Shown in pieces: positions 30,220-59,599 of a stretch of 64,000 nucleotides of DNA. How positions within the stretch are numbered: the stretch's first letter is position 1; every line of letters starts with the position of its first letter. The notes beneath the pieces are model-generated. The model was not told the origin of the DNA. It saw only the letters and a list, made by a program, of their open reading frames with translations, and did no database searches. Source of the stretch: Pseudomonadota bacterium (GTDB taxonomy: Bacteria > Pseudomonadota > Gammaproteobacteria > Burkholderiales > Rhodocyclaceae); assembly GCA_018262195.1 (NCBI GenBank), contig JAGTRS010000001.1, positions 62,001 to 126,000 on the forward strand, in the 5' to 3' direction. The position numbers were made by a program, and so were the translations under genes.

Positions 30220-30235
30220 TGTTCGCGAGCGTACA
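30220..30235. promoter_or_regulatory. Crp/Fnr-like palindrome, site F (TGTTCGCGAGCGTACA), divergent promoter
   Basis: -10-like TAGTTT (minus, 30198-30193) and TATCAT (plus, 30257-30262), both 37 nt from motif start. Confidence 0.6.
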
Positions 30236-30415
30236 TATCGATTTGGCTTTGTTCTGTATCATGCAAATTGGTTGGGGATTACATAAATGACTGGCGCCCA
30301 TGGCAGCCGGCCTTGAATTTGAGAAAGCACAAAAAACCCTGACACCGATCGACACCAGCAGCATGTGTCATCAAATTTCCGAGAAGTGCCGAGCGGATAA
30401 AACAATGGAGGCGCG

Positions 30416-31735
30416 ATGCCATCCGAATTGATATACAGCCCGAAACAGAACCGCATTCTTGGCTCACTGGCCACCAATGACTACTCACGCCTGCAGGATG
30501 ACCTTGAACTTGTTCATCTGGAACTGGGCCAGGTTCTTTATGAATCCGGCGATACCCTTGGCTACATTTTTTTCCCGATCACCTGCATCGTCTCCCTGAT
30601 CTTCACCACCAGAAAAGGTGGCACGGCAGAACTGGCCATTACCGGCAACGATGGACTGGTCGGCATTCCGCTGGTCCTGGGCGGCGACACAACCACGCAC
30701 CGGGTGGTTGTGCAGAGCGCCGGCGCCGCCTACCGGCTCAAGGTTGAAGTCGTCCGCTGGGAACTGGACCAGGGCGGCGAGTTGCAGCACCTGGCGCTGC
30801 GCTACACCCAGGCCCTGATGACCCAGATGGCGCAGAGCATCGTCTGCAACCGATTCCATGCCGTCGATCAGCAGCTATGTCGCTGGCTGCTGTTCAGCCT
30901 CGACCTGCTGCCCGGCAACCAACTGAACATGACGCAGGAACTGATTGCCAACATGCTGGGCGTTCGCCGTGAAGCGATCACCGAAGCCGCCGGAAAGCTG
31001 CAGGCCGCCGGCCTGATCGAATACAGCCGCGGCCATATCACCGTGCTCGACCGCCCCGGCCTGGAAGCCCGGGCATGCGAGTGCTACGCCGCCGTCAAAA
31101 GCGAATATGAGCGGATATTCCGCCTGCAATCCGATGTCCGCGGCCCCAGCCGGGCTCGCCCCAATCCGGCCAGCGTGCGCAATCGCGCCGAGGCCCGCTT
31201 GCTGCAATCGCCCCATCCGGAACCTAAAACTGCCTGGGACAACGCCCAGCTGGTGCACGAACTGCAGGTGCATCAGATCGAACTTGAAATGAGCAACGAA
31301 GAGCTCCGCCATGCCTATGAAGAAGCGGACAACCTGCGCGAACGTTATGCCGACATCTACGACTTCGCCCCGGTCGGCTATCTGACCCTGGATCCGCTTG
31401 GTGTCATCATCGACATGAATCTGGCCGGCGCCATGTTGCTTGGCACCAAAGGTTCCCAGAAAGGCCGGCATCGCTTTGCCGCGTTCCTTGAGCCCAATCA
31501 TGCCGAGGCATTCAATCGCTTTGTCGACGACGTTCTCCACTCGAGAAAGAAGCTGCGCTGCGAATCCGTACTGGCGGCCAATGTCCATCGCCCGGCAACG
31601 AATATCCGGATCGAGGCGGTTCCCGATGCCGACGGTCGCGAATGCCGGATGGTCGTCATCGATACCTCTGGCAACGCCACAAGATCCAAACACCAATCAC
31701 GGCGCGACACCGACAACACCAACGCAAAGGAGTAG
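30416..31735 (+). CDS. Crp/Fnr family transcriptional regulator fused to C-terminal PAS domain
   Basis: cNMP-like N-terminal domain, HTH MTQELIANMLGVRREAITEAAGKLQAAGLIEYSRGHITVLDRPGLE, then PAS (FAPVGYLTLDPLGVIIDMNLAGAMLLG). Confidence 0.9.
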   Translation: MPSELIYSPKQNRILGSLATNDYSRLQDDLELVHLELGQVLYESGDTLGYIFFPITCIVSLIFTTRKGGTAELAITGNDGLVGIPLVLGGDTTTHRVVVQSAGAAYRLKVEVVRWELDQGGELQHLALRYTQALMTQMAQSIVCNRFHAVDQQLCRWLLFSLDLLPGNQLNMTQELIANMLGVRREAITEAAGKLQAAGLIEYSRGHITVLDRPGLEARACECYAAVKSEYERIFRLQSDVRGPSRARPNPASVRNRAEARLLQSPHPEPKTAWDNAQLVHELQVHQIELEMSNEELRHAYEEADNLRERYADIYDFAPVGYLTLDPLGVIIDMNLAGAMLLGTKGSQKGRHRFAAFLEPNHAEAFNRFVDDVLHSRKKLRCESVLAANVHRPATNIRIEAVPDADGRECRMVVIDTSGNATRSKHQSRRDTDNTNAKE

Positions 31736-31740
31736 TCACC

Positions 31741-32061
31741 ATGCTTGTTACCTTCAAATCAGCCAACAACGCCGACCTGATCATGCACGAAAAGAGCGCC
31801 AGGGAAATTCTTGCCCTGCTCGGTAAAAGTCAGGACGACGCGCGTGGAATCATTACCGTTGAACAGTTGCCCGAAGCCATCTCGACGCTGCAGAAATCCA
31901 TCGTAGCCGACAAGGCCAGCCCGCAGAAAATAGCCGCCAGCCCGAGCAAAAACGAAACAGACGACGAGCCGCCGGTCAGCCTCACCCAACGCGCCACGCC
32001 CTTCGTCGAGATGCTCGAACGTGCCGTAAAAGCCGGCGAGCCGGTCGTCTGGGGGGTATGA
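31741..32061 (+). CDS. DUF1840 domain-containing protein
   Basis: MLVTFKSANNADLIMHEKSAREILALLGKSQDDARGIITVEQLPEAISTL. Confidence 0.85.
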   Translation: MLVTFKSANNADLIMHEKSAREILALLGKSQDDARGIITVEQLPEAISTLQKSIVADKASPQKIAASPSKNETDDEPPVSLTQRATPFVEMLERAVKAGEPVVWGV

Positions 32062-32068
32062 TCCGCCA

Positions 32069-34690
32069 ATGCCGTCCACCGGGAAGCGCGAGCGCATCCA
32101 CCCCCCCTCCGCAGTAGCCGATGACCAGCGCTTTCCGATCATCGGCATAGGTGCGTCAGCCGGCGGCCTCGAAGCGCTCGAGCAGTTTCTCGGCGGCGTG
32201 CCGGTCAATAGCGGCATGGCTTTTGTCGTCGTCCAGCACCTCGACCCCAACCGCTACGGCATGCTGCCGGAACTCCTGCAACGCACCACCACGATGGTGG
32301 TCAAGCAGGCGGGCAACCGGATGAAGATCAAGCCGGACTGCGTTTATGTCATTCCGCCCAACAAGGATCTGTCGATCCTCCATGACACCCTCTACCTGCT
32401 CGAACCGGTCGCGTCGCGAGGATTGCGTCTGCCGATCAACTCGTTTCTCTGCAGTCTGGCCGAAGACCGGCGCGAACGGGCCATCGGCATCATTCTTTCC
32501 GGCATGGGCTCGGATGGAACGCTGGGGCTGCTGGCGATCAGCGACCATGGCGGACTGTCGCTCGTGCAGGATCCGGCCACCGCCAAATTCGATGCCATGC
32601 CGCGCAGCGCGATTGACGCCCGCCTGGCGGATATCGTCGCCCCGCCGGGCGATCTGGCCAGACTGATTATCGACCGCCTGCAACACCCGCCTCGCCTTTT
32701 GCCCCCCGAAACGGTTCTCGAGCCGGATAGCGAGGCCAAAAGTTCGGCCTTCGACAAGATCTGCATCCTGCTGCGCGCCCAGACCGGTCACGATTTCTCG
32801 CTGTACAAGAAAAGTACGATCTATCGGCGGGTCGAGCGCCGGATGGGCATTCATCGGCTGGGCGGCATTGCCGACTACGTCGGCTTTCTCCAGACCAACC
32901 CCCAGGAAGTCGACCTGCTCTTCAAGGAATTGCTGATCGGCGTCACCAGCTTCTTCCGCGACCCCGCTGCCTGGGCCTATCTGCAGGAAGCAGTACTGCC
33001 CGGGATGATCCGCGCCAAAACCCACGACAATCTGCTGCGCGCCTGGGTGGCCGGTTGCTCGAGTGGCGAGGAGGCTTATACGCTGGCCATGATTTTCCAT
33101 GAGGCAATGGACCATGCCAAACCCGCCAACCGGATCGACCTGCAGATTTTCGCTACCGACCTCGATCCGGATGCCATCGCCAAGGCAAGGCAGGGAACCT
33201 ATCCGTCCAGCATTGCCAGTGACGTTTCACCGGAGCGTCTGGCGCGGTTTTTCGTTGAGGAAAATGGCCGCTACCGGATCTGCCAGGAAATACGCCAGAT
33301 GGTGGTTTTCGCACCGCACAACCTGACGATGGACCCGCCGTTTACCCGGCTGGATATCCTGACCTGCCGAAATGTCCTGATCTATCTGGGTGCCGACCTG
33401 CAAAAACGCTTGCTGCCGCTGTTCCACTACAGCCTGAAACCCGGTGGCACGCTTTTCCTGGGTTCGGCCGAAAGCATCGGCAACTTTACCGAGCTGTTCA
33501 ACCCGCTTGAAGCCAAGGCACGCATCTATCGCCGCGAAGAAGCGAAGCAAAGAGCCATCGATGTCGACTTCCCGACCCGCCATCTGGACGATTCCCCCAA
33601 CCCCATTCTGATACCGTCACCGACCATGCAACCAGCCAATCTGCAAACCCTGGCCGACCAACTGCTGCTGCAGAAATTCTCGCCAGCCGCCGTACTGACC
33701 AATGCGGAAGGGGACATCCTTTTCATCAACGGGCGGACCGGAAAATATCTCGAGCCGGCAGCCGGCAAGGCCAACTGGAACATCCATGCCATGGCCCGCG
33801 AGGGCTTGCGCCAGGAGCTGATTCTCGCCCTGCCCAAAGCACTGCGCAGCGCCGAGCCGGTGGTTGTCAAAAATCTGACGATCGAGGACAACGGCGAAAG
33901 TCACAGCCTTGACCTGACCGTTTACCCCATCGACGAACCAGCCCCCCTCCACGGCATGGCGATGATCGTCTTTGCCGATGTCGTCGCGGCAAAACCGGAG
34001 CCCAAGCGCCGTTCGAGAAAGCAGCTTGCCGATGTCCGCGTTGCCGACCTGGAACAGGCCCTGCTCAAGGCAAGGGAAGAGGTTCAGAGCATTCGCGAGG
34101 AGATGCAGACCTCGCACGAAGAACTCAAATCGACCAACGAGGAGTTGCAGTCGACCAATGAAGAGTTGCAGTCGACCAACGAGGAACTGACTACCTCCAA
34201 GGAGGAAATGCAGTCTCTCAACGAAGAGTTGCAGACGGTCAACGCCGAGCTTCAGTCCAAGGTCGACGAATGGTCCGCGACCAGCAATGACATGAAGAAC
34301 CTGCTCAACAGCACCGATATCGCCACGGTTTTTCTCGACAACATGCTGCATGTCCGGCGTTATACCAGCCAGGCGACCAAAATCTTCAAGTTCATTCCAA
34401 ACGACATCGGACGGCCGCTGGCCGATATTGTCCACAAACTCGACTACCTCGATTTGCAGGACGATGCCCAGGACGTCCTGCGGACGCTGGCCTTTTCCGA
34501 AAAGCAGATCACCAGCAAGGATGGATCCTGGTACATCGTCCGGATCATGCCCTACCGAACGCTGGAAAACGTGATCGACGGCGTGGTCATCACCTTCATC
34601 GACATCAGCGAGGCGAAACGGCTTGAAGCCGAGTTGCGGGCAGCCAGGGCAACCGGCGAGCCAGGCCCGACCACCAGGGATCAGCCATGA
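32069..34690 (+). CDS. CheB/CheR fusion protein with coiled coil and PAS domain
   Basis: CheB methylesterase motifs (IGIGASAGGLEALEQFL, GMGSDGTLGL), CheR methyltransferase (FFRDPAAWAYLQE, CSSGEEAYTLAM), coiled coil, PAS. Confidence 0.93.
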   Translation: MPSTGKRERIHPPSAVADDQRFPIIGIGASAGGLEALEQFLGGVPVNSGMAFVVVQHLDPNRYGMLPELLQRTTTMVVKQAGNRMKIKPDCVYVIPPNKDLSILHDTLYLLEPVASRGLRLPINSFLCSLAEDRRERAIGIILSGMGSDGTLGLLAISDHGGLSLVQDPATAKFDAMPRSAIDARLADIVAPPGDLARLIIDRLQHPPRLLPPETVLEPDSEAKSSAFDKICILLRAQTGHDFSLYKKSTIYRRVERRMGIHRLGGIADYVGFLQTNPQEVDLLFKELLIGVTSFFRDPAAWAYLQEAVLPGMIRAKTHDNLLRAWVAGCSSGEEAYTLAMIFHEAMDHAKPANRIDLQIFATDLDPDAIAKARQGTYPSSIASDVSPERLARFFVEENGRYRICQEIRQMVVFAPHNLTMDPPFTRLDILTCRNVLIYLGADLQKRLLPLFHYSLKPGGTLFLGSAESIGNFTELFNPLEAKARIYRREEAKQRAIDVDFPTRHLDDSPNPILIPSPTMQPANLQTLADQLLLQKFSPAAVLTNAEGDILFINGRTGKYLEPAAGKANWNIHAMAREGLRQELILALPKALRSAEPVVVKNLTIEDNGESHSLDLTVYPIDEPAPLHGMAMIVFADVVAAKPEPKRRSRKQLADVRVADLEQALLKAREEVQSIREEMQTSHEELKSTNEELQSTNEELQSTNEELTTSKEEMQSLNEELQTVNAELQSKVDEWSATSNDMKNLLNSTDIATVFLDNMLHVRRYTSQATKIFKFIPNDIGRPLADIVHKLDYLDLQDDAQDVLRTLAFSEKQITSKDGSWYIVRIMPYRTLENVIDGVVITFIDISEAKRLEAELRAARATGEPGPTTRDQP

Positions 34691-36471
34691 CACCCCCGCC
34701 GTTGACCAACCCGACCGAGTTACGGCGCCGGGCGGAAGATCAGCTCAATGCCACGCCGGGCGGCAAGCCGGCGGCCATGCCGCATGCCGACCAGACGCGG
34801 CTATTGCAGGAACTTCAAGTCCACCAGGTCGAGCTTGAAATGCAAAACCAGGTGTTGATCGAGGCGCAGACGGAAATATCCCGCAACCTCGCGCAATTGA
34901 CCGAACTGTACGATCTGGCCCCGATTGCCTATTTCACCCTGGATCGAACTGGCCGCATTACCAAATCGAATGCCATGGCCAGAAAGCTGATCGGCAGCCC
35001 GTTTCTGGCCATGGACGGTTGCCATCTGTCGCGCTTTATCCAGACAGATTCATTGCTGGCGTTCAAGGAGTTCATCACCCGGATATTCTCCATGCGGCGC
35101 CTGGAGGCTTGCCATCTGACACTACTGTCGTCACTCGGCCGTCCACCGGTCTATGTTGTCATGGAGGGGGTGGCCGATGAGAGCGAGCAGGAATGTCGTC
35201 TGGTCGTCACCGACCTGACGCGCCAGCATGCTTCGGAGGAGGCCCTGGCCTCGCTGGCCGTACGGACCGATGAACTGGCGGCGGCAAAGGCGGCAGCCGA
35301 AGCAGCCAACCGGACCAAGGCGGCTTTTCTCGCCAACATGAGCCACGAAATCCGTACGCCGATGAGTGCCATACTCGGCATGGCACATCTGATGCAGCGC
35401 TCTGAGCTCAATCCCGAGCAGCAGGTCCGGCTGGCCAAGATCGATGCGGCAGGAAAACACCTGCTCGGCATCATCAATGACATTCTTGACCTTTCCAAGA
35501 TCGAGGCCGATCAACTCGTCATCGAGAAAACGGCATTCATGGTCAACGACGTTCTGGCTGACGTGACCAATCTGGTAGCCGACAGGATCAGCGCCAATGA
35601 TCTCGAACTGCAGGTCAATCTGGCGCCTGAACTGCAGGGCTTGAACATGCTCGGCGACCCCTTGCGCTTGAAACAGGTGCTGCTGAATTTGCTGGGCAAT
35701 GCGATCAAATTCACCGAGCGGGGCCGTGTCGAAATCAGCGCCAGCGTTGCCGCTCAAAATGGGAATGACTGGCTGATCTCCTTTGCGGTCCGGGATAGCG
35801 GTTGCGGCATTCCGCCGGGCGCTCTGGAACGCATCTTCACGCCGTTTGAACAGGCCGATACCTCGACTACCCGGCAATACGGCGGCACAGGCCTGGGCCT
35901 GAGCATCTCGAAGCGACTGGTTCAATTGATGGGCGGCGATATTTCAGTAACCAGCAGGCTCGAGCAAGGCAGCACTTTTACCTTCTCGGTCCATCTTGAA
36001 AAAGATGGAAACCGGGAAAAGATGCCGGACGCCCGTCTGTTGCCGGACGCCCCGGATGCAGAGCAGCTACTGCGCACCCGCTATCGCGACAAATACATCC
36101 TGCTGGTCGAAGACGACGAAATCAATCAGGAAGTGGCGCTGGAAATACTGCATGAAGATATCGGCTTGCGCGTCGATGTGGCTGGTGATGGTGCCCAGGC
36201 GCTCGTCCTTGCGGCAAGCAATCCCTACGACCTCATCCTGATGGACATGCAGATGCCGGTCATGGATGGCCTGACGGCCACCCGATCCATCCGGCATCTG
36301 GCAGGCCACCACAAGACGCCGATCCTGGCCATGACCGCCAATGCCTTTACCGATGACCATCAACGCTGCCTTGAGGCCGGCATGAACGGCTTCATCCCGA
36401 AGCCGGTAGAGCCCAAGGCGTTATTTGAGATCATCGCGAAATGGCTGGAAGTTGCCTCGCCGCTCAACTAG
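34687..36471 (+). CDS. PAS hybrid sensor histidine kinase with receiver domain
   Basis: [24 protein letters not shown], HATPase, REC ([11 protein letters not shown]); ATGA overlap with CheB/CheR gene. Confidence 0.93.
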
Positions 36472-39400
36472 CCGGGACTGAACTGGCGACGATCACGACC
36501 TGATGTGCGACCAGGTCATTGACCAGTTGAATCACACAGTCCGCTTGTTCCATGCCATCAACCATGACGCTGCACCGCGTGTTTGTGCCTAGCGTGACAG
36601 CGATGTGATAAACCGTCGCCCGATAGCGGTAGCGGATCTTGAACCCCGGCCAGCCTGCCGGCAGACAGGGCGACAGGTATAGCTTGTCACCTGCCAGTCG
36701 CAGACCAAGCAGCGATTCGAGCATCAGCCGGTACATCCAGCCGGCCGAGCCGGAGTACCACGACCAGCCGGCGCGACCGGTATGGGGGGCCAGCGCATAG
36801 ACATCGGCGGCCATCACGTAGGGCTCGGCCTTGTAGGTGGCGACAGCGGCGACCGAGCTTGTATGGCTGATCGGGTTGATCATCGTCGTCAGTTCCCAGG
36901 CTCGTTCCCGATCGCCCAAAGCGGCGAAGGCCATCGCCGCCCAGATCGCGCCGTGGGTATATTGCCCGCCGTTTTCCCGCACGCCCGGCACATAGCCGCG
37001 GATATAGCCGGGGTCGAGCTTCGCCTTGTCGAAGGGAGGATCGAGCAGTTGAATCAGACCAGCCTGCCGGCGTACCAGATGCTCGTCGACAGCCTGCATG
37101 GCCTGTCGCCCGCGTGACGCATCGGCCACGCCAGACAAGACAGACCAGCTCTGCGAGATGGAATCGATCCGGCATTCGGGACTGGTACTGGAACCGAGGG
37201 GGGTTCCGTCGTCGAAATAGGCCCGGCGATACCAGGCGCCATCCCAGCCCTGTTGATCGATGCTCTGGTGCAGACGGGCCGCCTCGCCCCGGCAGAATTC
37301 GGCAAAAGCCGGATCGCCATGATTTTCTGCCACCGCGCTGAATTGTCTCAGCACGTCATAGAGGAAGAAGCCCAGCCAGACGCTCTCGCCCCGACCCAGA
37401 ATGCCGACCCGGCTCATGCCGTCGTTCCAGTCGCCGGAACCGATCAGCGGTAGACCATGCACGCCGAAGCGCAGGCCATGGCGGATGGCGCGGATACTGT
37501 GTTCGTACAGGCTGCCGATCTCACCCGAGCGGACCGGCAGATCGTAGTAGGAGTCGTCTTCCGGGTTGACCGGACGACCTTCAAGGAAACAGACGGTTTC
37601 ATCCAGCACGCCCGTGTCGCCGGTGCTCTGCACATAGCGGCTGACGGCCAGCGGCAGCCACAGGTAGTCGTCGGAACAGCGGGTGCGAACGCCGCGCCCT
37701 GAAGGCGGGTGCCACCAGTGCTGGACATCGCCCTCGGCAAACTGCCGGCTGGCACAGAGCAGCAAATGAGCGCGAACCAGGGCCGGTTCGGTATGAACCA
37801 GCGCCATCATGTCCTGCAACTGGTCGCGGAAGCCGAAAGCGCCACCTGACTGGTAATAGCCACTGCGCGCCCAGACCCGGCAGGCCAGCGTCTGATAGAC
37901 CAGCCAGCCATTGGCCAGCAGATCGAGCGCCGGGTCCGGCGTCTCGACCTGCACGGCACCGAGCGAATGCGTCCAGTACGCGGCAACCGCTTCGAGCGCC
38001 ATGCGCGCAGCCAGCGGGCCGCGGAAACGCTGGATCAATTGACTCGCCTCATCGCTGCCATGCCCGACACCAAGGCGGAAAGTAACTTCGCGTTCCTCGC
38101 CGTCGGCCAGGTCACAAACGAGCTGGATGGCGCCGCACGGATCCAGCCCGGCCCCGACCTTGCCGGAAAGACGGGCGCGCTTCAGTGCCGCCGGTTCATC
38201 CGGCGACCCGTTGCGCCCGATGAATTCGTTGCGGTCGCCAGTCAGCGTACGGCTGGTTTCATCGACATCGAAGAAGGCAACCCGCGCCGAGAATTCGGGG
38301 CTGTAGGGATTTCGCGCCAGCAGCGCGCCGCTGCCGGCCGCAACCTCGGTGCTGACATGCATGGCCGTTTTGGCCCGCAGATCACCGAGCACCCATTCGA
38401 CGTAGCCGGTGGCCGAAATTTGCCGCGGCCGGCCGGAATTGTTGGTCAGTTTCAGCACGGAGAATTTGACCGGCGCATCAATGGCGACATAAACCTTGAG
38501 TTCGGAGTGAATCCCGCCGGCACTGGTTTCAAAAGTGCTGACCCCAAAACCATGGCGGATCGTGTAAGGCATGGCGCCGCGCACCGGCAGAGGCGTTGGC
38601 GACCAGACGTGTCCTGTCTCTTCGTCGCGCAGGTAGATGGCCTCGCCGGCGGCATCGCTGACCGGATCGTCATGCCAGGGCGTCAGGCGAAATTCGTGGG
38701 CGTTGTCGCACCAGCTGTAGGCGCTGCCACTTTCCGAAATCACCGTGCCGAAATGCGGATTGGCCAGCACGTTGGCCCACGGCGCCGGGGTGGAGTGGCT
38801 GGCGGCCAGCGTAATGACGTATTCCCGGCCATCGGCGGCAAAGCCACCCAGTCCGTTGTGGAACAGCAGATCAAGACCACTGACGGTCGCTGCCGGCGGC
38901 GCTTCGGGGCGATAGCGCCGGCTCGGCACCAGACGTGGCACGCGTGACTCAACCGGCGCGCGCTGGTCGAGCTGTTCGGCCAGACTGCCGCGGCAGTCGG
39001 TAATCACGGCCCGCGCCACGGATTGCAGCAGGATGCGGTCTTCGCTCGAAATCTGTTCGGCCAGCCGCACGAATATGCCGCCCGGCCGATCGATGACACT
39101 GGCCTCGATGCCCGACGCGATGAGTCCCATGATCTGATCCTGCAAGCGCTGCCGGTAGCCGGCATGGTCTTCGTTCCAGATCACCAGATCGACGACCAGG
39201 CCTTTCAGGCGCCAGTAGGCGTGGGCCTGCACCAATTGGCGGACAAGATCGATATTGGCCGCATCGCCGATCTGCAGCAGGACGATGGGCAGGTCGCCGG
39301 AAATGGCGTAGCCCCAGAGACCGGACTGGCCGCGCTGATTGCGGATGAGCACCGAAGCGTCGGCGCGCAGCGAGGGATTGGCATGGATGACCGAACCGGC

Positions 39401-42400
39401 CAGGTGAGCGTAAAGCTGGGCATCTGCCTCGGTGGCATTGAGTTGGCGCAGCACAACCTGGCTGTGTGTCCAGGTCAGTTCGAAAACGCGGTCGGCGAGA
39501 TGCCGGTCCTGATATTTCTCGACCAGTCCGAGCGCCATGGCCCGAGTTTCAACAATGCCCGTCACCAGATCGATGGTCACCGACTGCTCGGGCTCGAGCA
39601 CGATCCGATGGCGAACGGCGACGATGGGGTCGAGCACCGAGCCGTCGCTACCGGACAGGCGGCCGGCTTCGTCCATGGCCAGCGGACTGGCGGTGCTCCG
39701 GGTACGGCCGATAAAGCGGGAGCGATCGGTCTCGGCGGACACAGCCACCGACACGGCATCATGAACCGCCATCAGGTGCAGCATCCAGGGCGCCTGCTCG
39801 TCGAGCGAACGTGGCCGGCGGGTGCACAGCACGGCATTGCGCCCATGCAGGATTTCGCTCTGCACGAACAGGTTGCTGAAGGCCGGGTGCAGCTCGTCCG
39901 CCGCCGCCGGGGCGATGACCACCTCGGCATAACTGGTCACCTCGATCTCGCGACGCTGCCTGGTCCGGTTGGTGATCCTGGTCCGGCGCAGCTCGATATC
40001 GTCCTCGGGCGAGACGACGATGTCGGTGTAGGTTTCGAACTCCCCTTCCCCGCCATCGAGCGAATCACGCCGGCGGAATTCGGCGCGCCCTTCGGAGAAG
40101 ATCGCCTCGTAATGGTCCGGCCGTTTCAGCGTCGGCTGATAGGCGGTCGACCAGACGGTGCCGCTGGCCAGTTCGCGGATGTAGCAGAAGCTGCCCCGGT
40201 TGTCGCGGGTGCCATCCTCGCGCCAGCGTGTGACGGCCAGATCGTTCCAGCGGCTGTAACCGCCACCGGCATTGGTCACCATCACGTGGTAGCGGCCGTT
40301 CGACAGCAGTTGGACTTCCGGCACCGGCGTATCGGGCGTGTTGAAGACGCGGATGGGCGTTTCTTCAACGCTCAATGCCGAACGCGCGTCAGCCAGTTCG
40401 GCCGTATGCGAGAACAGCGTGGTGACCTTGGGAATGCGTTCCTGAAGCAGGAGCAGGATGGCCTGGAACAGGCGGTCGGCGACAAAGCGCTTTTGCATCG
40501 GCTGATTGAGCAGCAGGTAGTCCAGGGCGAGCAGGCTCATGCCCTGGTGGTGGGCCATGAAAGAACGGACGACGACATGCGACTGGCCGCGCCGCTGACG
40601 AGCCGGCGTGTAGTCGATGGCCTCGAAGAAGCCGTATTTGCCGACAAAACCCTCGTCGGCCATGCGCTGCAGGTTGAGGCAGGCCGCTTCGGGTGCCACC
40701 ATCAGGGCCAGCGCCGAAGCATAGGGGGCAATGACCAGATCCTCGGCCAGCCCGCGCTTGAGGCCCAGCCCCGGGACGCCGAAGGCGCGGTACTGGTAGT
40801 TGAGGTGCAGATCGACCGTGTTGTAACCGGATTCGGAGACGCCCCACGGCACGCCGCGCTGCTTGCCGTACTCGATCTGGCGCGCCACGGCGGCCTTGCA
40901 GGTCTGGTCGAGCAAGGTGTTTTCGTAATTGGGCATGACCAGCATCGGCATCAGGTACTCGAACATCGAGCCGCTCCACGACAGCAAGGCCGGTTCGCCG
41001 CCGGTGCCGGTGAGCAGCCGGCCAAGCGAGAACCAGCTTTCCTGCGGCAGTTGCCCCTGGGCGATGGCGACGAAGTTGCACAGCCGGGCTTCAGAAGCCA
41101 GCAGGTCGTAATAACTGGTATCGACCCGGCGTTCGGTGACGTTGTAGCCGATGGTCAAGAGGTGGCGCGCCTTGTCGAACAGGAAGCTGTAATCCATCTG
41201 CGCCAGGTCGCCGGATTGCTCGGCGATGGCGTCGATCAGGGCGATGCGCCGGGTGGCGACTTTGCCGGCCAGCGTAATCTGGCGAGACAGTTCAAGCAGC
41301 CAGTGACGTTGCTCGGGGCTCAAGTCCATCGCCAGGTGCGTCTCGATGTCCGGACAACGTTCGGCCGACAGGCGGGCCAGGCCGCGCAGGGTCGGCAAGG
41401 CTGCCTCATTGGCGATCCGGGCAAATAACTCCAGCCCGGCCGGCGCTGGCGGCAGGCTCAGCCAGGGAGCCAGTTGTTCGAGTTCGGACTGCGACTCGGC
41501 CAGCTGACGAACGAGCGCCTGCACCCATTCCGCAGCTTCATTCTCGATCGGTGTTTCATCAAGGACCGAAAGACTTGCCGCAACGTCGGTGGCCAATTCA
41601 TCGGCGCACTTGCCCAGTAGCTGCAACTGCCGCGCCATGGCCGAGATGGTCTGCGGCGGGTTGAGCATCGCTGCATTCAGCGCCTTGCGGAAGGCAGCCA
41701 GCGTGCCGGCCACTGCTTCATCAGCGCTTTCAGCCAGCAAGCCGAGCGTGTCGTTCAGGCCGGCGAGCAAGCATGGCTGCAATATCGTCACATCGGCCAG
41801 CCCGAGCAGACCGCCGCGCAGGGTGAGTAAATGCCCGGCCAGGTTGCCACTATCGACCGTCGAGATGTAGAGCAGCGGCAGCGGTTGCAGGGTCTGCGTG
41901 TCGTACCAGTTGTAGAAATGGCCGCGATAACGCTCCAGTCCGGCCATGGTCCGCAGCGTGTTGGCGGTCCGTTCGAGCAGCTTGCCGGTCGGAATGTAGC
42001 CAAAATCCCAGGCGCTCAGGTTGGCCAGCAGGGCCATCCCCATATTGGTCGGCGAGGTGCGGTGAGCGATGGCGGCAACACGGTACTCCTGATAATTGTC
42101 AGGGGCCAGCCAGTGATCGTCCGGGCCGGCGAAATGCTCGAAGAAGGCCCAGGTCCGCCGGGCGATCCGACGCAGGAAAAAGCCCTGCTCTTCCGTCAGG
42201 TGAGCCTTGTGAGCAGCCAGCGGGCGGCTCAGCCACCAGGCGATGAATGGTGAACTCAGCCAGAGCAGCAGAACCGGTGCGGCGATGAACATCTCGACCG
42301 GACCGGCGAACACCAGCCAGCTACCCAGCACGATGGCCAGTAGCGGGCCGATCCACATGCTGCGCAGGCAGGCGACCAGTTCGCTACGGCGGCGGCCGGC

Positions 42401-45370: not shown

Positions 45371-45685
45371 TTACTTGATACGCATGTCATTCTTGACAGA
45401 GCTCACACCCTTGACTGCACGGGCCAGATCGACAGCCTTGCTGGCCGCAGCCTGCGAACTGACGAAGCCGCTCAGTTGAACAACACCCTTGTAGGTTTCG
45501 ACATTGATTTCGGCGGATTTCAGGGTGGATTCGCCAAGAATGGCGGCCTTGACCTTGCTGGTGATCACTGCGTCATCGACGTATTCGCCTGTGCTTTCCG
45601 ACTTGGAAGTAGATGTGCAACCAACGGCAGTGAGCAGCGTCAGTGACAGAAACAAGGCGGACAGATATTTGTTGAACTGATTCAT
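45371..45685 (-). CDS. BON domain-containing lipoprotein
   Basis: Signal and lipobox-like AVGCTS; VKAAILGESTLKSAEINVETYKGVVQLSGFVSSQAAASKAVDLARAVKGVSSVKNDM. Confidence 0.88.
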   Translation of the reverse strand: MNQFNKYLSALFLSLTLLTAVGCTSTSKSESTGEYVDDAVITSKVKAAILGESTLKSAEINVETYKGVVQLSGFVSSQAAASKAVDLARAVKGVSSVKNDMRIK

Positions 45686-45793: not shown

Positions 45794-45809
45794 GGTGCGT
45801 TGGCACACA
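45794..45809. promoter_or_regulatory. Crp/Fnr-like palindrome, site D (GGTGCGTTGGCACACA)
   Basis: One mismatch to TGTNNGNNNNCNNACA; minus-strand -10-like TAGTCT at 45772-45767, offset 37. Confidence 0.55.
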
Positions 45810-48669: not shown

Positions 48670-48948
48670 TCAGCGGCGACTGATCAGGGCACCGATGAAG
48701 GCACCGGCTGCAGCAGCAATCCCGATGATCTTCCAGGGGTTGGCCCGAACGTATTCATGGGTGGCAGTGGCGGCGCCGCAGGCTTTTTCCGACATCGCAT
48801 GGCGCGTGGCGGAAAACTCTTCGGCCACCGTATGACCGGCGTCCTTGAGCAGATGGTCGGCCTTGCCGACTATCCCCTTCAAGTCCCTGACCAGGCTGTC
48901 CTTCGAGCTTTCGGTCGATCCCGGGGTGGTAGTGATATCTGTGCTCAT
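48670..48948 (-). CDS. DUF883 (ElaB/YqjD-like) membrane-anchored protein
   Basis: DLKGIVGKADHLLKDAGHTVAEEFSATRHAMSEK...HEYVRANPWKIIGIAAAAGAFIGALISRR. Confidence 0.88.
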   Translation of the reverse strand: MSTDITTTPGSTESSKDSLVRDLKGIVGKADHLLKDAGHTVAEEFSATRHAMSEKACGAATATHEYVRANPWKIIGIAAAAGAFIGALISRR

Positions 48949-49055: not shown

Positions 49056-49071
49056 TGTGCGCTGGCGAACA
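49056..49071. promoter_or_regulatory. Crp/Fnr-like palindrome, site A (TGTGCGCTGGCGAACA)
   Basis: Exact motif; plus-strand -10-like TAGCAT at 49092-49097, offset 36. Confidence 0.6.
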
Positions 49072-49148: not shown

Positions 49149-49307
49149 ATGTCACTGGGAACCATTCTGCTGATCATTCTGGTCCTGTTATTGATCGGCG
49201 CCATTCCAAGCTGGCCGCATAGCCGGGGCTGGGGCTACGGCCCGAGCGGCGGCATTGGCCTGCTGTTGGTGATCCTGCTTGTTCTTGTTCTGCTGGGCAG
49301 GATTTAG
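49149..49307 (+). CDS. DUF3309 family small membrane protein
   Basis: MSLGTILLIILVLLLIGAIPSWPHSRGWGYGPSGGIGLLLVILLVLVLLGRI* (52 aa, not in ORF track). Confidence 0.9.
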   Translation: MSLGTILLIILVLLLIGAIPSWPHSRGWGYGPSGGIGLLLVILLVLVLLGRI

Positions 49308-49337
49308 ACACCCAAAACCATACCGGAGATTCAAATC

Positions 49338-49757
49338 ATGATGAAAAACAAAACCACGCTGATCGCTGCATCACTTCTTCTTGCCCTCGGCCTGAGCGCC
49401 TGCGACAAGCCCGGGCCGGCCGAACAGGCGGGCAAGAAAATGGATCAGGTCGCCAGCGATACCGGCAAGAAGGTCGGCGAGACCGTCGACAAGGCAGAAA
49501 AGAAGATGACCGAACAGGGCGAGAAGACCGCCCAGGCCTTCGATGACACCGAAATCACCGCCAAGGTCAAAGCCGAACTCTTGGGCGAGCCTGGCCTGAA
49601 ATCGATGCAAATCAGTGTCGATACCGTCAAGGGAGTCGTCACGCTGACCGGTACGGTTGATTCGAAAGCCAACAGCGACAAGGCCAAAGCCAGAACGATG
49701 GCGATTAGCGGCGTCAAGGACGTGACAAATCAGCTCGTCGTCACAGCCAGCAAATAA
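49338..49757 (+). CDS. BON domain-containing lipoprotein
   Basis: LALGLSACDKPGPAEQ lipobox; VKAELLGEPGLKSMQISVDTVKGVVTLTGTVDSKANSDKAKARTMAISGVKDVTNQL. Confidence 0.9.
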   Translation: MMKNKTTLIAASLLLALGLSACDKPGPAEQAGKKMDQVASDTGKKVGETVDKAEKKMTEQGEKTAQAFDDTEITAKVKAELLGEPGLKSMQISVDTVKGVVTLTGTVDSKANSDKAKARTMAISGVKDVTNQLVVTASK

Positions 49758-49791
49758 GTAGGAACCACCACCCGCACCGAAGGAGCAAGTC

Positions 49792-50082
49792 ATGGAACTG
49801 CATAAGGAATATAAGGAAAAAATGAGCGCACAACTCAAGGAGTGGAGCGCTCAGGTCAATCTGCTTGAAGCCAAGATGGACAGTTTTACCGCCGACATGA
49901 AAATCATGCGCGCTGAGGAAATTCAGGCCCTGCGCGCCAAGCAGCACGCCGCCGCCGACAAGATGAAAGAACTCGGCAAGGCCAGTGGCGAAGCCTGGGA
50001 TCAAGTCAGGATAACCGCCGACAAGATGTGGGACGACCTGAAGACCGGACTGACCGACGCCCAGTCGAAATTCAGGCAGTAA
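49792..50082 (+). CDS. Coiled-coil stress-type hypothetical protein
   Basis: MELHKEYKEKMSAQLKEWSAQVNLLEAKMDSF... helical, 96 aa. Confidence 0.75.
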   Translation: MELHKEYKEKMSAQLKEWSAQVNLLEAKMDSFTADMKIMRAEEIQALRAKQHAAADKMKELGKASGEAWDQVRITADKMWDDLKTGLTDAQSKFRQ

Positions 50083-50156: not shown

Positions 50157-50172
50157 TGTGGGCTAACCCACA
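50157..50172. promoter_or_regulatory. Crp/Fnr-like palindrome, site C (TGTGGGCTAACCCACA)
   Basis: Exact motif; plus-strand GATAAT at 50191-50196 (offset 34). Confidence 0.55.
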
Positions 50173-52452: not shown

Positions 52453-52466
52453 TGATCATTCCCATG

Positions 52467-52914: not shown

Positions 52915-53478
52915 TCAACGCTTGATGCGGCTGATCTTGGTACCTTCGATGCTCAGGCTGGCCATCAGGCCCTGCTGGTCGAAGATGAAGGCATAGGCGT
53001 CGTTCTTCAGTGTCGAAGTCGACAGGTTCTTGGCAATGCCTTCATTGACGACGACAACGCTCGGGCCGACACCAAATTCCCAGCCCTTCGAGCTGTCGAG
53101 GTACTTGACGGCCTTGTCGCTCATCAGGAAGACGACGTAGCCGTAGGATTCAGCACCGGCTTGCCAGCCCCAGGAAGCGGAGACGGAGTTGAAATAGCCG
53201 GACTGCTTGCCGGCCTTGGTCAGCACGCCTTCGCCATAACTGCCGCCGAAGACCAAACCAGCTTTGACGATCTTCGGAAAGACGAGGATCCCCTTGGCCT
53301 TCTTGGAAAGGTCTTCGGCAACCGGGTTGCTCTTGTAAAGGGATTGCAGGGCCTGAGCGGCGTCCTGGTCGAGATCTTCTGCGCTGGCGGCGATCGCTTG
53401 GCCGCTTAATGTGCCCAGGGAAAATGTGGCGGCTGTGATGAGCAGAAGGCTTTTCAATGCGTGGCGTCTGGTAGTCAT
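52915..53478 (-). CDS. SYLF (YSC84-like) lipid-binding domain protein
   Basis: KAKGILVFPKIVKAGLVFGGSYGEGVLTKAGKQSGYFNSVSASWGWQAGAESYGYVVFLMSDKAVKYL. Confidence 0.92.
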   Translation of the reverse strand: MTTRRHALKSLLLITAATFSLGTLSGQAIAASAEDLDQDAAQALQSLYKSNPVAEDLSKKAKGILVFPKIVKAGLVFGGSYGEGVLTKAGKQSGYFNSVSASWGWQAGAESYGYVVFLMSDKAVKYLDSSKGWEFGVGPSVVVVNEGIAKNLSTSTLKNDAYAFIFDQQGLMASLSIEGTKISRIKR

Positions 53479-53604: not shown

Positions 53605-53620
53605 CGTTCGCTGGCACACA
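53605..53620. promoter_or_regulatory. Crp/Fnr-like palindrome, site E (CGTTCGCTGGCACACA)
   Basis: One mismatch; minus-strand -10-like TAAGCT at 53583-53578, offset 37, upstream of SYLF gene. Confidence 0.55.
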
Positions 53621-53674
53621 TAGGAGGCGTACATCGGCTAGACTGGGGCAGCCCGCAAAATGCTTTGTCACAAG

Positions 53675-53690
53675 CGTGCGGTGGCGCACG
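53675..53690. promoter_or_regulatory. Crp/Fnr-like palindrome, site G (CGTGCGGTGGCGCACG)
   Basis: Two outer mismatches, inverted-repeat arms perfect; plus-strand TATATC at 53712-53717, offset 37, upstream of protease gene. Confidence 0.45.
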
Positions 53691-53755
53691 GAAGGCCTGC
53701 GGAAAAGTCGCTATATCTAGATCAACTGTTCCATTTTTCGTCACACACTACATCA

Positions 53756-54484
53756 ATGATTGAGCCGATCCTTCTTACCGCCGCCCGCATTTCGACTTTC
53801 AATGACAAGGTGCTGCTGACCAATGCCAGCGGCTTTTTCTTTGAGCGCGACGAACGACTGTTTCTGGTCACCAGCCGGCATGTGCTGTTCGGCAAGACCA
53901 GCAAGCATTTTCCGACCCGAATCGAGATCGAACTGCACACCAATGCAGCCAACGTCGCCGAATCCACTGGCTTTTCCATTCCGCTTTACCGCAATGGGAA
54001 AAGCATCTGGCGCCAGGGTCTGGATGCGGCAGGCGAAATCGACGTCGGCGTCATCGAAATCGACCGCAAGGCCTTGCCCAAGACAGCCGTCTATCGGGCC
54101 TTCAGCCCGACGCACCTGTTGAGCAGCCTCGATCAGGTTGAGGTTGGCTCCTCATTGCTGATTGTCGGCTTCCCGCTCGGCTTTCATGACGCACTGCATC
54201 ACACGCCGGTGGTACGCCATGCCATCATCGCCTCGTCGTTCGGTCTGCGTTTTCAGGGGGAAGGGTTCTTTTTGACCGATGCCCGCACCCATCGCGGCAG
54301 CAGTGGTGCGCCGGTGGTCATGCGAATAGCCCAGTCGACACCGGGTCACGGCGATCTGCCGTGGATGCTGCTCGGCATTCATTCCTCTCGCTTCGATGTC
54401 GGGAATCGTGATCTGGTCGAGGATGAAGCGCTGGGGCTGAACGGTGCCTGGTACGCCGACATCCTGCTCAAGCTGACCGAGTAG
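53756..54484 (+). CDS. Trypsin-like serine protease family protein
   Basis: LFLVTSRHVLFG (His), DVGVIEID (Asp), THRGSSGAPV (Ser). Confidence 0.85.
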   Translation: MIEPILLTAARISTFNDKVLLTNASGFFFERDERLFLVTSRHVLFGKTSKHFPTRIEIELHTNAANVAESTGFSIPLYRNGKSIWRQGLDAAGEIDVGVIEIDRKALPKTAVYRAFSPTHLLSSLDQVEVGSSLLIVGFPLGFHDALHHTPVVRHAIIASSFGLRFQGEGFFLTDARTHRGSSGAPVVMRIAQSTPGHGDLPWMLLGIHSSRFDVGNRDLVEDEALGLNGAWYADILLKLTE

Positions 54485-54497
54485 CAGAACTCCTGAT

Positions 54498-55622
54498 TCA
54501 ATGCCCTGCCGGCGTGGCGTTTTCCGCCTGCAGGCCAAGCAATATCTTTTCATAAGCTTCGGCAAACAACTGCACGCCGTCCAGTTGCAGGCTTTCACCG
54601 ACTGCATTCAGGTCGATGCCCAGTTCCATCAGCGCTTCAATGTGAATTTGGGCTTCATCCAGCCCAACCGGCAGGCTATTGGCCACCTGCCCGTGTTTTC
54701 GAAAAGCCGCCAGCGTTGCATCAGGCAGCGTATTGATGCTTTCTGCTCCGATCAGCGGTTCGACATAGAGCACATCGCTGTACGCCAGGTTCTTGCTGCC
54801 AGTGCTGGCCCACAAGGGAGTCTGCGGTCTGGCGCCGGCCAGACGAAGCAGCGCAAAGTCCGGCCCATGGAAAATATCGCGGTATCGGCCATGACAGCAT
54901 TTGGCCAGCGCGACACCGGCTCGCCCGCTGAGTCGTGCAGCGTGCGCGGTAGCCAGTGCATCGAGACGTTTATCGACCACCGTATCGACTCGACTGAGAA
55001 AGATGCTGGCCACCGAACGCAAGTGCCGGGCTTGCCCCCCACTCTCCACCCAGCGCAAAGCGCCGCGCAGGTAGGCCTGAGCAACTGCCTCGTACTGCGC
55101 CAGTGAAAAAATCAGGGTGACGTTAACCGACACCCCTGCCGCGCTCAAAGCTTCGAAAGCAGCAATTCCCGCTGGCGTCCCCGGTACCTTGATCAGCAGA
55201 TTGTCGCGCCCGACCGCAGCGGACAGACGATGGGCTGCGGCGATGGTGCCGGCCGTATCGTTGGCCAGCGCCGGCGAAACCTCCAGACTGACATATCCGC
55301 TTTCACCACGGCTGGCCCGGAAAGCCGGCAGCAACATGGCACAGGCCGCACGGATATCGGCGATGACCAGCGATTCGTAACAGGCCTCGGCATCCAGACC
55401 TTCGCCCCGCAAGCGTTCCAGGTCGTCACGGTAATAGGGACTGCCGGCGATGGCCTTCTCGAAAATGGACGGGTTGGAGGTGACGCCATCGACCCCGTCC
55501 TCGTTGATCAGGCGTTGCAGGCCACCTTCGCGCAGCAAGGTGCGTGACAGGTTGTCGAGCCAGATGTGTTGGCCGAGTTTCTTGAGCGCCAGCAGCGGGT
55601 TGGTATTTACGGATCTGTTCAT
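54498..55622 (-). CDS. tal: Transaldolase
   Basis: IWLDNLSRTLLREGGLQRLINEDGVDGVTSNPSIFEKAI, LIKVPGTPAG. Confidence 0.93.
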   Translation of the reverse strand: MNRSVNTNPLLALKKLGQHIWLDNLSRTLLREGGLQRLINEDGVDGVTSNPSIFEKAIAGSPYYRDDLERLRGEGLDAEACYESLVIADIRAACAMLLPAFRASRGESGYVSLEVSPALANDTAGTIAAAHRLSAAVGRDNLLIKVPGTPAGIAAFEALSAAGVSVNVTLIFSLAQYEAVAQAYLRGALRWVESGGQARHLRSVASIFLSRVDTVVDKRLDALATAHAARLSGRAGVALAKCCHGRYRDIFHGPDFALLRLAGARPQTPLWASTGSKNLAYSDVLYVEPLIGAESINTLPDATLAAFRKHGQVANSLPVGLDEAQIHIEALMELGIDLNAVGESLQLDGVQLFAEAYEKILLGLQAENATPAGH

Positions 55623-58009
55623 CACTTCGCTCCCGGCCATTGCCAGTCGAGGATTTCCGGCATGTCCTCACCGTGTTCAAGGATGTATTGCGTGTGCTCG
55701 TTGAGCTTGTCACGCATGGCCTGCTTGATGTGCGCTGCCTGGGCGTGCAGTTTCGGCACCCGCTTGGCCACGTCCATGACCAGATGAAAACGGTCCAGAT
55801 GGTTGAGCACGACCATGTCGAAAGGCGTCGTCGTCGTACCCTCTTCCTTGTAGCCGCGCACGTGCAGGTTGGTGTTAGTGCGCCGGTAGGTCAGCCGGTG
55901 AATCAGCCAGGGGTAGCCGTGGTAGGCGAAGATGATCGGCTTGTCCGTGGTGAACAGCGAATCGAACTCGTCGCTCGACAGCCCGTGTGGATGCTCTTCC
56001 TGCGGCTGCAGGGTCATCAGGTCGACGACGTTGATGCAGCGGATTTTGAGGGTCGGCGTCAGTTTGTGCAGGATGTCGATGGCGGCCAGCATTTCCAGCG
56101 TCGGCACGTCGCCGGCCGAAGCAAGCACGATGTCCGGTTCGCCCGGCTGGTCGTTGCAGGCCCATTCCCACAGGCCGATACCGGCGCTGGCGTGGTTGAT
56201 CGCTGCTTCCATATCCAGCCACTGCCAGTCCGGCTGCTTGCCGGCGACGATGACATTGACCAGGTTGCGGCTCTTCAGGCAGCGGTCGGTGACGTACAGC
56301 AGCGTGTTGGCATCCGGCGGCAGATAGACGCGGATGATGTCGGCCTTCTTATTCACGACGTGGTCGATGAAGCCGGGGTCCTGATGCGAAAAGCCGTTGT
56401 GATCCTGCCGCCAGACATGCGAGGTGAGCAGGATGTTGAGCGAGGCAATCGGCCGCCGCCAGGGAATCTCGCCGCACATCTTGAGCCATTTGGCGTGCTG
56501 GTTGAACATCGAATCGACGATGTGGATGAAGGCTTCGTAGCAGGAAAAAAGGCCATGGCGACCGGTCAGCAGGTAGCCTTCGAGCCAGCCCTGGCAGGCA
56601 TGTTCGGACAGCACTTCCATGACCCGGCCATCGGGCGCCAGATGGTCGTCACCTTCGAGATGCTCGGCCATCCAGGTCCGGTTGGTGACTTCAAACAGCG
56701 CACCGAGACGGTTGGAGGCCGTTTCATCCGGCCCGAAGACGCGGAAATTGTCGGGGTTCTGGCGCATCACGTCGCGCAGGAAGACGCCCATGGCTCGCGT
56801 TGCTTCGGCCACCGATCCACCTGGGCTCGGCACCGCCACGGCGTAGTCGCGAAAATCCGGCAAACGGAGGTCGCGCAACAGGGCGCCGCCGTTGGCGTTC
56901 AGGTTGGCGCCCATGCGCCGTTGGCCTGTTGGAGCCAGCGCGGCGATCTCCGGCATCAGCCGGCCATCTTTATCAAACAATTCCGCTGGCTTGTAAGAGG
57001 CCATCCATTCACCCAGCAATTGGACGTGCTCCGGCTTGTCCATGTCGCTGAACGGCACCTGATGCGAACGCCAGGAGCCTTCGCTCTGCTTGCCATCGAC
57101 GGTTTTCGGCCCGGTCCACCCTTTGGGCGAACGGAGGATGATCATCGGCCAGCGCGGCCGGCTTTCATCGCCACCTTCGCGCGCCCGACGCTGAATGGCG
57201 GCAATGCTCGCCATTGCGGTGTCGACTGCCGCCGCCATCAACTGGTGCATGGTTTCCGGATCGTCGCCCTCGACAAAGATCGGCTGGTAGCCGTAGCCAA
57301 CGAACAGGCATTCCAGTTCCATGTGGCTGATCCGGGCCAGGATGGTCGGGTTGGCGATCTTGTAACCATTGAGGTGAAGGATGGGCAGCACGGCACCATC
57401 AGTGCGCGGATTAAGGAATTTGTTGGAGTGCCAGGAAGTCGCCAGCGGTCCGGTCTCCGCCTCACCATCACCGACGACACAGCAGGTGATCAGGTGCGGG
57501 TTGTCGAACACCGCACCGTAGGCATGGAACAGGGCGTAACCGAGTTCGCCGCCTTCGTGGATCGAGCCCGGCGTATCCGGCGAGGCATGGCTGGGAATGC
57601 CGCCAGGGAAGGAGAACTGGCGGAACAGCCGGCGCATGCCCTCCTCGTCTTGGGATATGTTCTGGTAAAACTCGCTGTAGCTGCCTTCCAGCCAGGTGTT
57701 CGCCACCACGCCCGGACCACCGTGGCCTGGGCCGGCGATGAAGATCATGTTCAGACCGTGCTGCCGGATCGCCCGGTTCATATGCACGTAGATGAAGTTA
57801 AGACCCGGCGTCGTGCCCCAGTGCCCCAGTAGCCGTGGCTTGATGTGTGCCAGCGTGAGCGGCGTTTTGAGCAGCGGGTTGTCAAGCAAATAGATCTGCC
57901 CGACCGACAGATAATTGGCGGCGCGCCACCAGGCGTTCATTCGGTCGAGTTCGTCGGCCGCCAGCGGAGTGTGAGTGGTGAGCATTTGCTTATCCTTGAT
58001 CGTGTTCAT
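55622..58009 (-). CDS. xfp: Phosphoketolase (xylulose-5-P/fructose-6-P)
   Basis: 795 aa; [74 protein letters not shown]. Confidence 0.95.
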
Positions 58010-58332
58010 TGGGCACCTGCCTTGCGTAGACGGGCTTGCAGGGATTCGAGTTCGTCGAGTAGTTGCAGGGCCAGCGCGGCGCCGGCCAGATTGACGCCGA
58101 GGTCGCGTTGCAGCCGGATGGCGACCGTGGCACGTCGCAGGTGGGTGCCGGTGAAACGCCAGCGATGCGGTTCCCGGCCGATGGGTGACAAAACCCCTTC
58201 ATCGACCAGTTCGACGATGGTTTCTACCTGCACGGCGCAGGCCTGGCAGACTTCGCTGATGGTCAGGTCGGTTTGCTCTTCAAGAATGATCGCGCTGGGT
58301 TGCGGCAGCATTTTGTCTTTATCCTTATCCAT
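58006..58332 (-). CDS. cbpM: Chaperone modulator CbpM (MerR-like)
   Basis: [73 protein letters not shown]. Confidence 0.88.
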
Positions 58333-58334
58333 GC

Positions 58335-59282
58335 TTACGCTCCCAGTCTGGATCGCGGCTTGAAGGACTTGAACTGCTCGGCCATGCCGGCATAGAAGGC
58401 CTGGTCGGCGTCGTTTTCGGCCACCGGCAAAACCACCTGCAGCACAACGTAAAAGTCGCCGGGCGTAGTGCCCGGAATGCCCCGCCCCTTGAGCCGCAGC
58501 TTGCCGCCGGCTTTCGAATTGGGCGGAACCTTCAGGTCGACCGTGGCATTCGGCGTCGGCACACTGACTGTTGCCCCGAGGGCCGCTTCCCATGGCGCCA
58601 GCGGCAAGTCGAGAAAGACATCGCGCTGCTCGACACGAAAATGGGCATGTGGATTGAACGCCACCTCCAGATAGAGATCGCCCGCCTTGCCTTGCCCGAT
58701 GCCCGGTGCGCCCTGCCCGGCCAGCCGAATATGCTGCCCGGCGCGAACGCCGCGCGGAATGGTCACATTCAGCTTGTGGGAGCGCATCGTCACCCGGCCG
58801 TTGGCATCCGCCTCAGGCGTGCCGAGCGTAATCACCCGGGTCGCGCCGCTATAGGTGTCGGCCAGATCGATCATGACCTGGGCGTGCCTGTCCTCGCCGC
58901 GGGCATGAAACGCCTGCTGGCCCCGACTGGCACCAGCGAAACCATGCCCATACAGGGATTCGAAAAAATCGCTGAAATCCTCGGCGCCCCTGGCGTTTGC
59001 ACCGTCGCCGGAGAACTCGAACCCGGCGTTCCAGTCCGGCGGCGGCCGGAAATCCTGCCCAGCCTGCCAATTGGCGCCCAGCCGGTCGTAGGCGGCACGC
59101 TTTTCCAGATCCTTGAGCACCGCATTGGCTTCGCCGAGTTCCTTGAAACGGACTTCGGCCTCGGGATCCTTGCTGACATCCGGATGGTACTTGCGAGCCA
59201 GTTTGCGATAGGCCCGCTTGATCTCGTCCTGGGTCGCGTCCCGCGCCACACCCATGATCTTGTAATAGTCCTTGAATTCCAT
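58335..59282 (-). CDS. cbpA: DnaJ-like co-chaperone CbpA
   Basis: J domain MEFKDYYKIMGVARDATQDEIKRAYRKLARKYHPDVSKDPEAE plus DnaJ C-terminal domain. Confidence 0.93.
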   Translation of the reverse strand: MEFKDYYKIMGVARDATQDEIKRAYRKLARKYHPDVSKDPEAEVRFKELGEANAVLKDLEKRAAYDRLGANWQAGQDFRPPPDWNAGFEFSGDGANARGAEDFSDFFESLYGHGFAGASRGQQAFHARGEDRHAQVMIDLADTYSGATRVITLGTPEADANGRVTMRSHKLNVTIPRGVRAGQHIRLAGQGAPGIGQGKAGDLYLEVAFNPHAHFRVEQRDVFLDLPLAPWEAALGATVSVPTPNATVDLKVPPNSKAGGKLRLKGRGIPGTTPGDFYVVLQVVLPVAENDADQAFYAGMAEQFKSFKPRSRLGA

Positions 59283-59295
59283 GGTGAGGCTTTCC

Positions 59296-59475
59296 TCAGG
59301 CCGGATCTGTCCCGACCACAACCGGCGGGGACTCGGCCGGTTCCGGCATCACCGCTCTTTCCCCGGAGCCATCCTTCTCTGCCGGCAGCAACGAAGCAAT
59401 CGGCGCCCAGTGGCGACAACCGGTTTGTGTCGCGCGGTGTCGCGTACCCGGCAGGTATTCGATTTCGTCATTCAT
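59296..59475 (-). CDS. Small hypothetical protein, 59 aa, leading gene of cbpA operon
   Basis: MNDEIEYLPGTRHRATQTGCRHWAPIASLLPAEKDGSGERAVMPEPAESPPVVVGTDPA; GGAGA Shine-Dalgarno. Confidence 0.5.
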   Translation of the reverse strand: MNDEIEYLPGTRHRATQTGCRHWAPIASLLPAEKDGSGERAVMPEPAESPPVVVGTDPA

Positions 59476-59583
59476 TACGGATCTCCGTTGCCTGAGCAGC
59501 CGATTGCTGTCGTCACGACTATGCATGCCCTCGGCAAACGATTCGGTGTGCCAGCCAACATAGATGCCAATGAATTTCACATG

Positions 59584-59599
59584 TGTGTGTTGGCGAACA
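59584..59599. promoter_or_regulatory. Crp/Fnr-like palindrome, site B (TGTGTGTTGGCGAACA), divergent promoter
   Basis: Minus TATGTT at 59562-59557 and plus CACCAT at 59621-59626, both offset 37. Confidence 0.6.

Follow-up and report, generated by a model that had tools for sequence, protein, structure and literature searches.

A palindromic element recurs between the genes of a 64,000-nucleotide stretch of a Rhodocyclaceae contig (JAGTRS010000001.1, positions 62,001–126,000; hereafter the window), and it was assigned, with a probability of roughly 0.83, as the operator of a distinct branch of CRP/FNR regulators that would act by class II activation, autoregulate and control clustered stress genes. 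The element lies at one exact distance before many stress-protection genes and this, together with a comparison of dozens of bacteria, indicates a real circuit rather than chance. The regulon is real and conserved, and its geometry is that of class II CRP promoters. Its proposed reader is represented in the window by a 439 aa protein, Crp-PAS.

The first-pass annotation of the window had described seven 16-bp palindromes (A–G), and all of them were found again (Table 1). Four of them (A, B, C and F) are exact instances of TGTNNGNNNNCNNACA. The other three deviate only at the outermost bases, D and E at base 1 and G at bases 1 and 16, and according to the gene calls of the window all seven sites lie between genes. 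The distances to −10-like hexamers were also reproduced (36 nt for A, whose hexamer is TAGCAT, 34 nt for C and 37 nt for the other five sites); the spacing of site C is the weakest of the set. An eighth site, overlooked previously, was found in the gap between the CHRD gene and cbpA. Exact 16-mer matches are enriched in the window (4 against 0.47 expected from 31 matches of the reversed pattern in 4.227 Mb, P ~ 0.0014), and nine exact matches fall in a 57-kb island of the window's contig, C9 (92–149 kb, P ~ 7e-10), where the cluster of sites continues beyond the window to position 149,067. The earlier consensus is enriched as exact matches; with two mismatches allowed it is not (197 matches in the window against 231 expected from shuffling). 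Since the 16-mer is loose and not enriched at up to two mismatches, the evidence rests on a refined 20-bp motif.

Table 1. Palindromic sites, proposed reader and neighbouring genes in the window. Sites are the 16-bp cores; offsets are counted from the core start; PWM, weight-matrix score.
Feature	Position in window	Strand	PWM	−10 hexamer (offset, nt)	Context or evidence
42-aa Lys-rich protein	30031..30159	-			Site F target; gene call
Site F	30220..30235	.	22.2	TAGTTT (-), TATCAT (+); each 37	Between 42-aa Lys-rich gene (-) and crp-PAS (+)
Crp-PAS regulator gene, 439 aa	30416..31735	+			Proposed motif reader; HTH_Crp_2 PF13545 3.7e-15
BON lipoprotein, OsmY-like	45371..45685	-			PF04972 7.7e-21; NCBIfam OsmY model below cut-off
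Site D	45794..45809	-	21.4	TAGTCT (37)	Upstream of BON lipoprotein
DUF883 (YqjD/ElaB-like) protein	48670..48948	-			PF19029 2.7e-13
Site A	49056..49071	.	28.4		Gap between DUF883/EncFtn (-) and DUF3309-BON-coiled-coil operon (+)
DUF3309-BON-coiled-coil operon	49149..50082	+			PF11752, PF04972; third gene from sequence only
Site C	50157..50172	+	16.0	GATAAT (34)	Upstream of secreted Q/P/R-rich protein
SYLF/Ysc84-domain secreted protein	52915..53478	-			PF04366 1.5e-10
Site E	53605..53620	-	18.6	TAAGCT (37)	Upstream of SYLF gene
Site G	53675..53690	+	14.2	TATATC (37)	Upstream of trypsin-like serine protease
Trypsin-like serine protease	53756..54484	+			PF13365 2.4e-10
cbpA-cbpM-phosphoketolase-like-transaldolase-like operon	54498..59282	-			DnaJ, MerR_2 families for CbpA/CbpM; other two names from sequence reading in the first-pass annotation
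Eighth site	59545..59560	-	16.5		cbpA/CHRD gap
Site B	59584..59599	.	21.2	TATGTT (-), CACCAT (+); each 37	Between cbpA operon (-) and CHRD gene (+)
CHRD-domain secreted protein	59660..60112	+			PF07452 1.7e-27

The full element, derived from other genomes, is the 20-bp palindrome TMTGTKCGCYRGCGMACAKA. A weight matrix (PWM) trained on other genomes only and used at a threshold of at least 14 recovered all of A–G as well as the site at 59545. The scan of the 277-kb contig with this matrix bore out the expectation that the motif keeps to the DNA between genes and is not equally common inside them: 21 places scored at least 14, 21/21 were intergenic, and all were located within the 57-kb island, which starts inside the window and extends 23 kb past its end. 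The other 219 kb of the contig contained no place at or above the threshold. Genes were called with a simple gene caller, and genome-wide counts rest on pattern searching, controlled with the reversed patterns, and on selected stretches. In the whole genome, the 20-mer with up to two mismatches occurs 27 times and its reversed control 6 times. Of the 27 matches, the C9 island accounts for 14 and contigs C14 and C58 for 6, and the other 7 correspond to the chance level. Matches bearing TGTNCGYYRRCGNACA concentrate, in the whole-genome list, on the window's contig and beside Crp-like genes of two others, C14 and C58. For these two, and not for the window's contig, it matters that the draft genome has an estimated contamination of 9.95%. 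In-gene matches on C26, C31, C32, C39 and C45 were rejected as sites, as they have no promoter context and their number is that of chance.

The class II geometry proposed for the window was also found beyond it. Of 219 oriented sites, 55 have the hexamer TANNNT at precisely 37 nt from the start of the core, against a background of 1.3, and six each have it at offsets 36 and 38; with one site counted per locus it was at 37 nt in 15 of 60. This one-nucleotide preference places the operator centre at −41.5, i.e., in the class II position. In the 55 sites with the 37-nt spacing, the downstream flank contains GAC 24 times and the mirror flank 3 times; this GAC is read as a partial, degenerate −35 element with a 17-bp spacer to the −10. 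A full TTGACA was absent from the promoters at motif sites. Class II CRP promoters are activator-dependent and have a poor −35 element, and the features of such promoters (operator at −41.5, a −10, a poor −35) were all recognizable in the sequences. In addition, C occurs in 51% of the −10 regions at −13 and in 53% at −8, which may be taken as a weak hint of RpoS-like promoters.

The same regulator and operator might instead act mainly in repression, or in a dual manner, by covering the −35 region. The operator does overlap the degenerate −35, repressors also occupy such regions, and autoregulation is often negative. This reading was considered unlikely, because the observed distribution of offsets is far tighter than ordinary promoter spacers of 16–18 bp require and because the lack of a full TTGACA is expected of activator-dependent promoters. 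It is very improbable that the palindromes represent structural or repetitive DNA such as REP-like elements, RNA hairpins or terminators. In being GC-rich and intergenic they would fit this reading, but they keep a fixed phase to the −10, are placed ahead of gene starts, and are conserved together with the −10 across beta- and gammaproteobacteria.

To evaluate the link between the motif and the Crp-PAS family, 80 orthologue loci from public genomes were analyzed, mostly from beta- and gammaproteobacteria and not independent of each other. They contained 17 exact and 67 one-mismatch occurrences of the consensus, compared with 0.09 and 2.5 for 300 permuted palindromes. An assumption-free palindrome search (4096 half-sites × 15 gaps) upstream of 78 orthologues ranked TGTGCG-N4-CGCACA first, with 24 loci at up to one mismatch, where the mean of the searched palindromes was 0.09; the connection with the Crp-PAS family, like the class II geometry, holds on data independent of the first-pass annotation. 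When the class was sampled evenly (184 genomes), 49 motif matches (7 for the control) fell to the 19 genomes with the regulator and 25 (67 for the control) to the 165 genomes without it. The co-occurrence of motif and regulator was significant across the class sample (P = 6e-14) and within genus (P = 0.001).

The orthologues differ in the recognition helix. An upstream site with up to one mismatch was found for 41 of 71 RRE-type genes and for 0 of 6 RRS-type genes (P = 0.008, with kinship ignored), the latter originating only from Cupriavidus, Ralstonia and Paraburkholderia. The RRS-helix Burkholderiaceae orthologues without an upstream motif are those of loci L070, L087, L094, L104, L113 and L114; RRS-type proteins may read another operator. 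No close upstream site was found for 30 of the 71 RRE-type genes. The regulator-bearing genomes G026, G085, G106 and G150 contained no 20-mer match, and the regulators of G085 and G106 have altered recognition helices.

Another protein, namely canonical CRP, FNR or an unrelated regulator of the island, could read the motif, with Crp-PAS being merely a target. The site upstream of the Crp-PAS gene would fit this, as would genome G212, where five strong sites precede CsbD, DUF1328, entericidin-like and GlsB-like genes (L234–L236) and no RRE-type regulator was found in a draft in which several of these sites lie near contig ends. We consider this explanation improbable, slightly more so than repression. 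The CRP operator TGTGA-N6-TCACA was found upstream in 0 of the 80 loci at up to one mismatch and the FNR operator TTGAT-N4-ATCAA in 2, with no FNR-type match in the C9 island, and both were rejected as candidates. Moreover, the motif excess follows the Crp-PAS branch across the class and inside the genus, and sites are missing where the recognition helix becomes RRS.

The Crp-PAS protein showed weak matches to the cNMP_binding (just below the cut-off) and PAS families, and NCBIfam contained no family for it. The AlphaFold2 model (pLDDT 90) has a complete CRP/FNR fold with the beta-roll sensor, dimer helix and Crp-type winged helix-turn-helix of the superfamily, and its top PDB matches were all CRP/FNR proteins (E ~ 1e-13). 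The 20-bp palindrome likewise has the appearance of the two-fold symmetric operator of ~14–22 bp that is typical of the superfamily. In the alignment with E. coli CRP, E72 falls in a gap and R82 and S83 are aligned with Thr, so cAMP is unlikely as the signal. An FNR-type N-terminal cysteine cluster was not found in the window protein, which has one cysteine (C57) within the first 140 residues. Cysteines 144, 155, 221 and 223 are invariant and could be candidate redox or metal ligands. Crp-PAS represents a branch that has the CRP fold and lacks both the cAMP pocket and the FNR cysteine cluster. The recognition helix (VRREGVTE / GVRREGVTEAAGKLQ) is near-invariant among orthologues and altered in comparison with CRP: the equivalents of R180 and E181 are retained, while S179 is replaced with Arg and R185 with Glu. 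When helix residues were matched to half-site bases using the known CRP–DNA contacts, these replacements appeared to agree with the invariant G at the second base of the half-site (CRP position 5), the relaxed position 7 and the change of positions 8–9 to CG.

The genome contains four copies of the Crp-PAS gene, of which three (on C9, C14 and C58) adjoin motif sites; the assignment of the four Crp-like paralogues to individual sites is provisional. The C14 paralogue (L042:1495-3702; from C14:85487 onward) is a Crp-PAS-PAS-PAS-GGDEF fusion, a DNA-binding CRP-type protein with a diguanylate cyclase domain, and a perfect site lies upstream of its gene (C14:85384). In the window (30416-36471), the Crp-PAS gene is located in a run with genes for DUF1840, a CheB-CheR-PAS hybrid and a receiver-bearing histidine kinase, which is possibly a signal-input module. 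A CheB-like gene likewise adjoins the Crp-PAS gene in G197. Next to this run, a minus-strand gene (36464-45244) encodes a 2926-aa protein, probably of the cyclic glucan synthase type judging by its size and start.

The sites are conserved upstream of orthologous genes in sister species, as the first-pass annotation had anticipated. Site F has the same divergent arrangement, Lys-rich gene and crp-PAS, in sister genome G186 (L240). Site A is a full match to the 20-mer, which is identical in G186, G190, G191 and G195. It is flanked by divergent units, the DUF3309 operon on one side and DUF883/EncFtn on the other; G186 and G197 retain this DUF3309/DUF883 arrangement, as well as the CHRD/cbpA arrangement around site B, with paired sites at the place equivalent to the eighth site. 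The encapsulated-ferritin-like EncFtn gene (TIGR04535; 48344-48631) lies downstream of site A, and none of the genes examined was recognized as coding for an encapsulin shell. Site D and its −10 are kept in the orthologues of G190, G195 and G186, with 3–4 mismatches to the 20-mer. The SYLF orthologues of G186, G190, G195 and G197 retain site E and its −10, and those of the regulator-less G204, G210, G212 and G214 have no site. In G186 and G197, sites were also found at SYLF, BON, CsbD, DUF1328 and collagen-like lipoprotein genes, with orthology established partly by eye. In other families, sites distant from the regulator genes precede SYLF, BON, DUF883 and PRC-barrel-like genes, along with entericidin-like, catalase-like and polysaccharide-export genes, all of them identified by eye from the sequence. 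Pfam analysis of 108 site-adjacent genes in the orthologue loci revealed Crp HTH in 20, CsbD in 8 and BON in 7, compared with 5, 2 and 2 among 108 control genes.

These characteristics allow us to assume the following mechanism. The TMTGTKCGCYRGCGMACAKA palindrome would be the operator of the CRP/FNR branch with the helix GVRREGVTEAAGKLQ, and TGTGCGCTAGCGCACA is the form expected to bind Crp-PAS or its C14/C58 paralogues. A dimer would sit centred at −41.5 over the degenerate −35 and touch RNA polymerase in the manner of class II activators, autoregulating the Crp-PAS gene and switching on physically clustered envelope, desiccation/osmotic and oxidative stress genes (BON, CsbD, DUF883, DUF3309, SYLF, DUF1328, CbpA, CHRD, VIT, PLD and others). 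The signal would be neither cAMP nor an FNR-type Fe-S cluster and would probably enter via the PAS extension, the neighbouring CheB-CheR-PAS/kinase genes or the invariant cysteines. Direct binding, activation, the signal and a stress function of Crp-PAS are what we infer, and the "general stress" label of the regulon is suggested by gene families only.

We know of no common regulator for CsbD, BON, DUF883, DUF3309, SYLF, DUF1328 and CHRD in environmental proteobacteria, where CsbD, BON, DUF883 and similar genes are among the commonest stress genes of unknown function. No description of the operator or of the regulator branch was found in the open-access literature searched; the control circuit is apparently undescribed and this CRP/FNR branch little-studied. 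A defined operator with a defined regulator family makes the control of these genes testable, the motif can be used in the annotation of many genomes, and the CRP/FNR code gains a new recognition-helix/operator pair. It may tentatively be suggested that a portable stress island of beta- and gammaproteobacteria is under the control of an unnamed, widespread CRP/FNR branch, which has an operator code of its own and couples the island to signalling by PAS fusion and, in the C14 paralogue, by fusion with a diguanylate cyclase, so that one protein would both read the operator and make c-di-GMP.

A comparison with known systems indicated that the system resembles E. coli CRP and its class II promoters in the fold, the retained R180 and E181 equivalents, the 16-bp two-fold core, the half-site spacing, the TGT...ACA ends and the centre at −41.5. 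It differs in the half-site (TGTGCG instead of TGTGAT), in the S179 and R185 replacements and in the pocket residues E72, R82 and S83, which are not conserved. FNR/DNR/FixK-type regulators, which are often class II activators, belong to the same superfamily as Crp-PAS; unlike them, Crp-PAS has no N-terminal cysteine cluster. With the sigma-B/RpoS general stress regulons the proposed regulon shares overlapping families (CsbD, OsmY and YqjD-type genes). CsbD is cited as a sigma-B stress protein of B. subtilis in a passage of PMC7660261, and in an Achromobacter mutant a CsbD-DUF1328-BON cluster was upregulated together with capsule genes (PMC11719878). Unlike in those regulons, the common feature here is a CRP-like operator and not a sigma-factor promoter.
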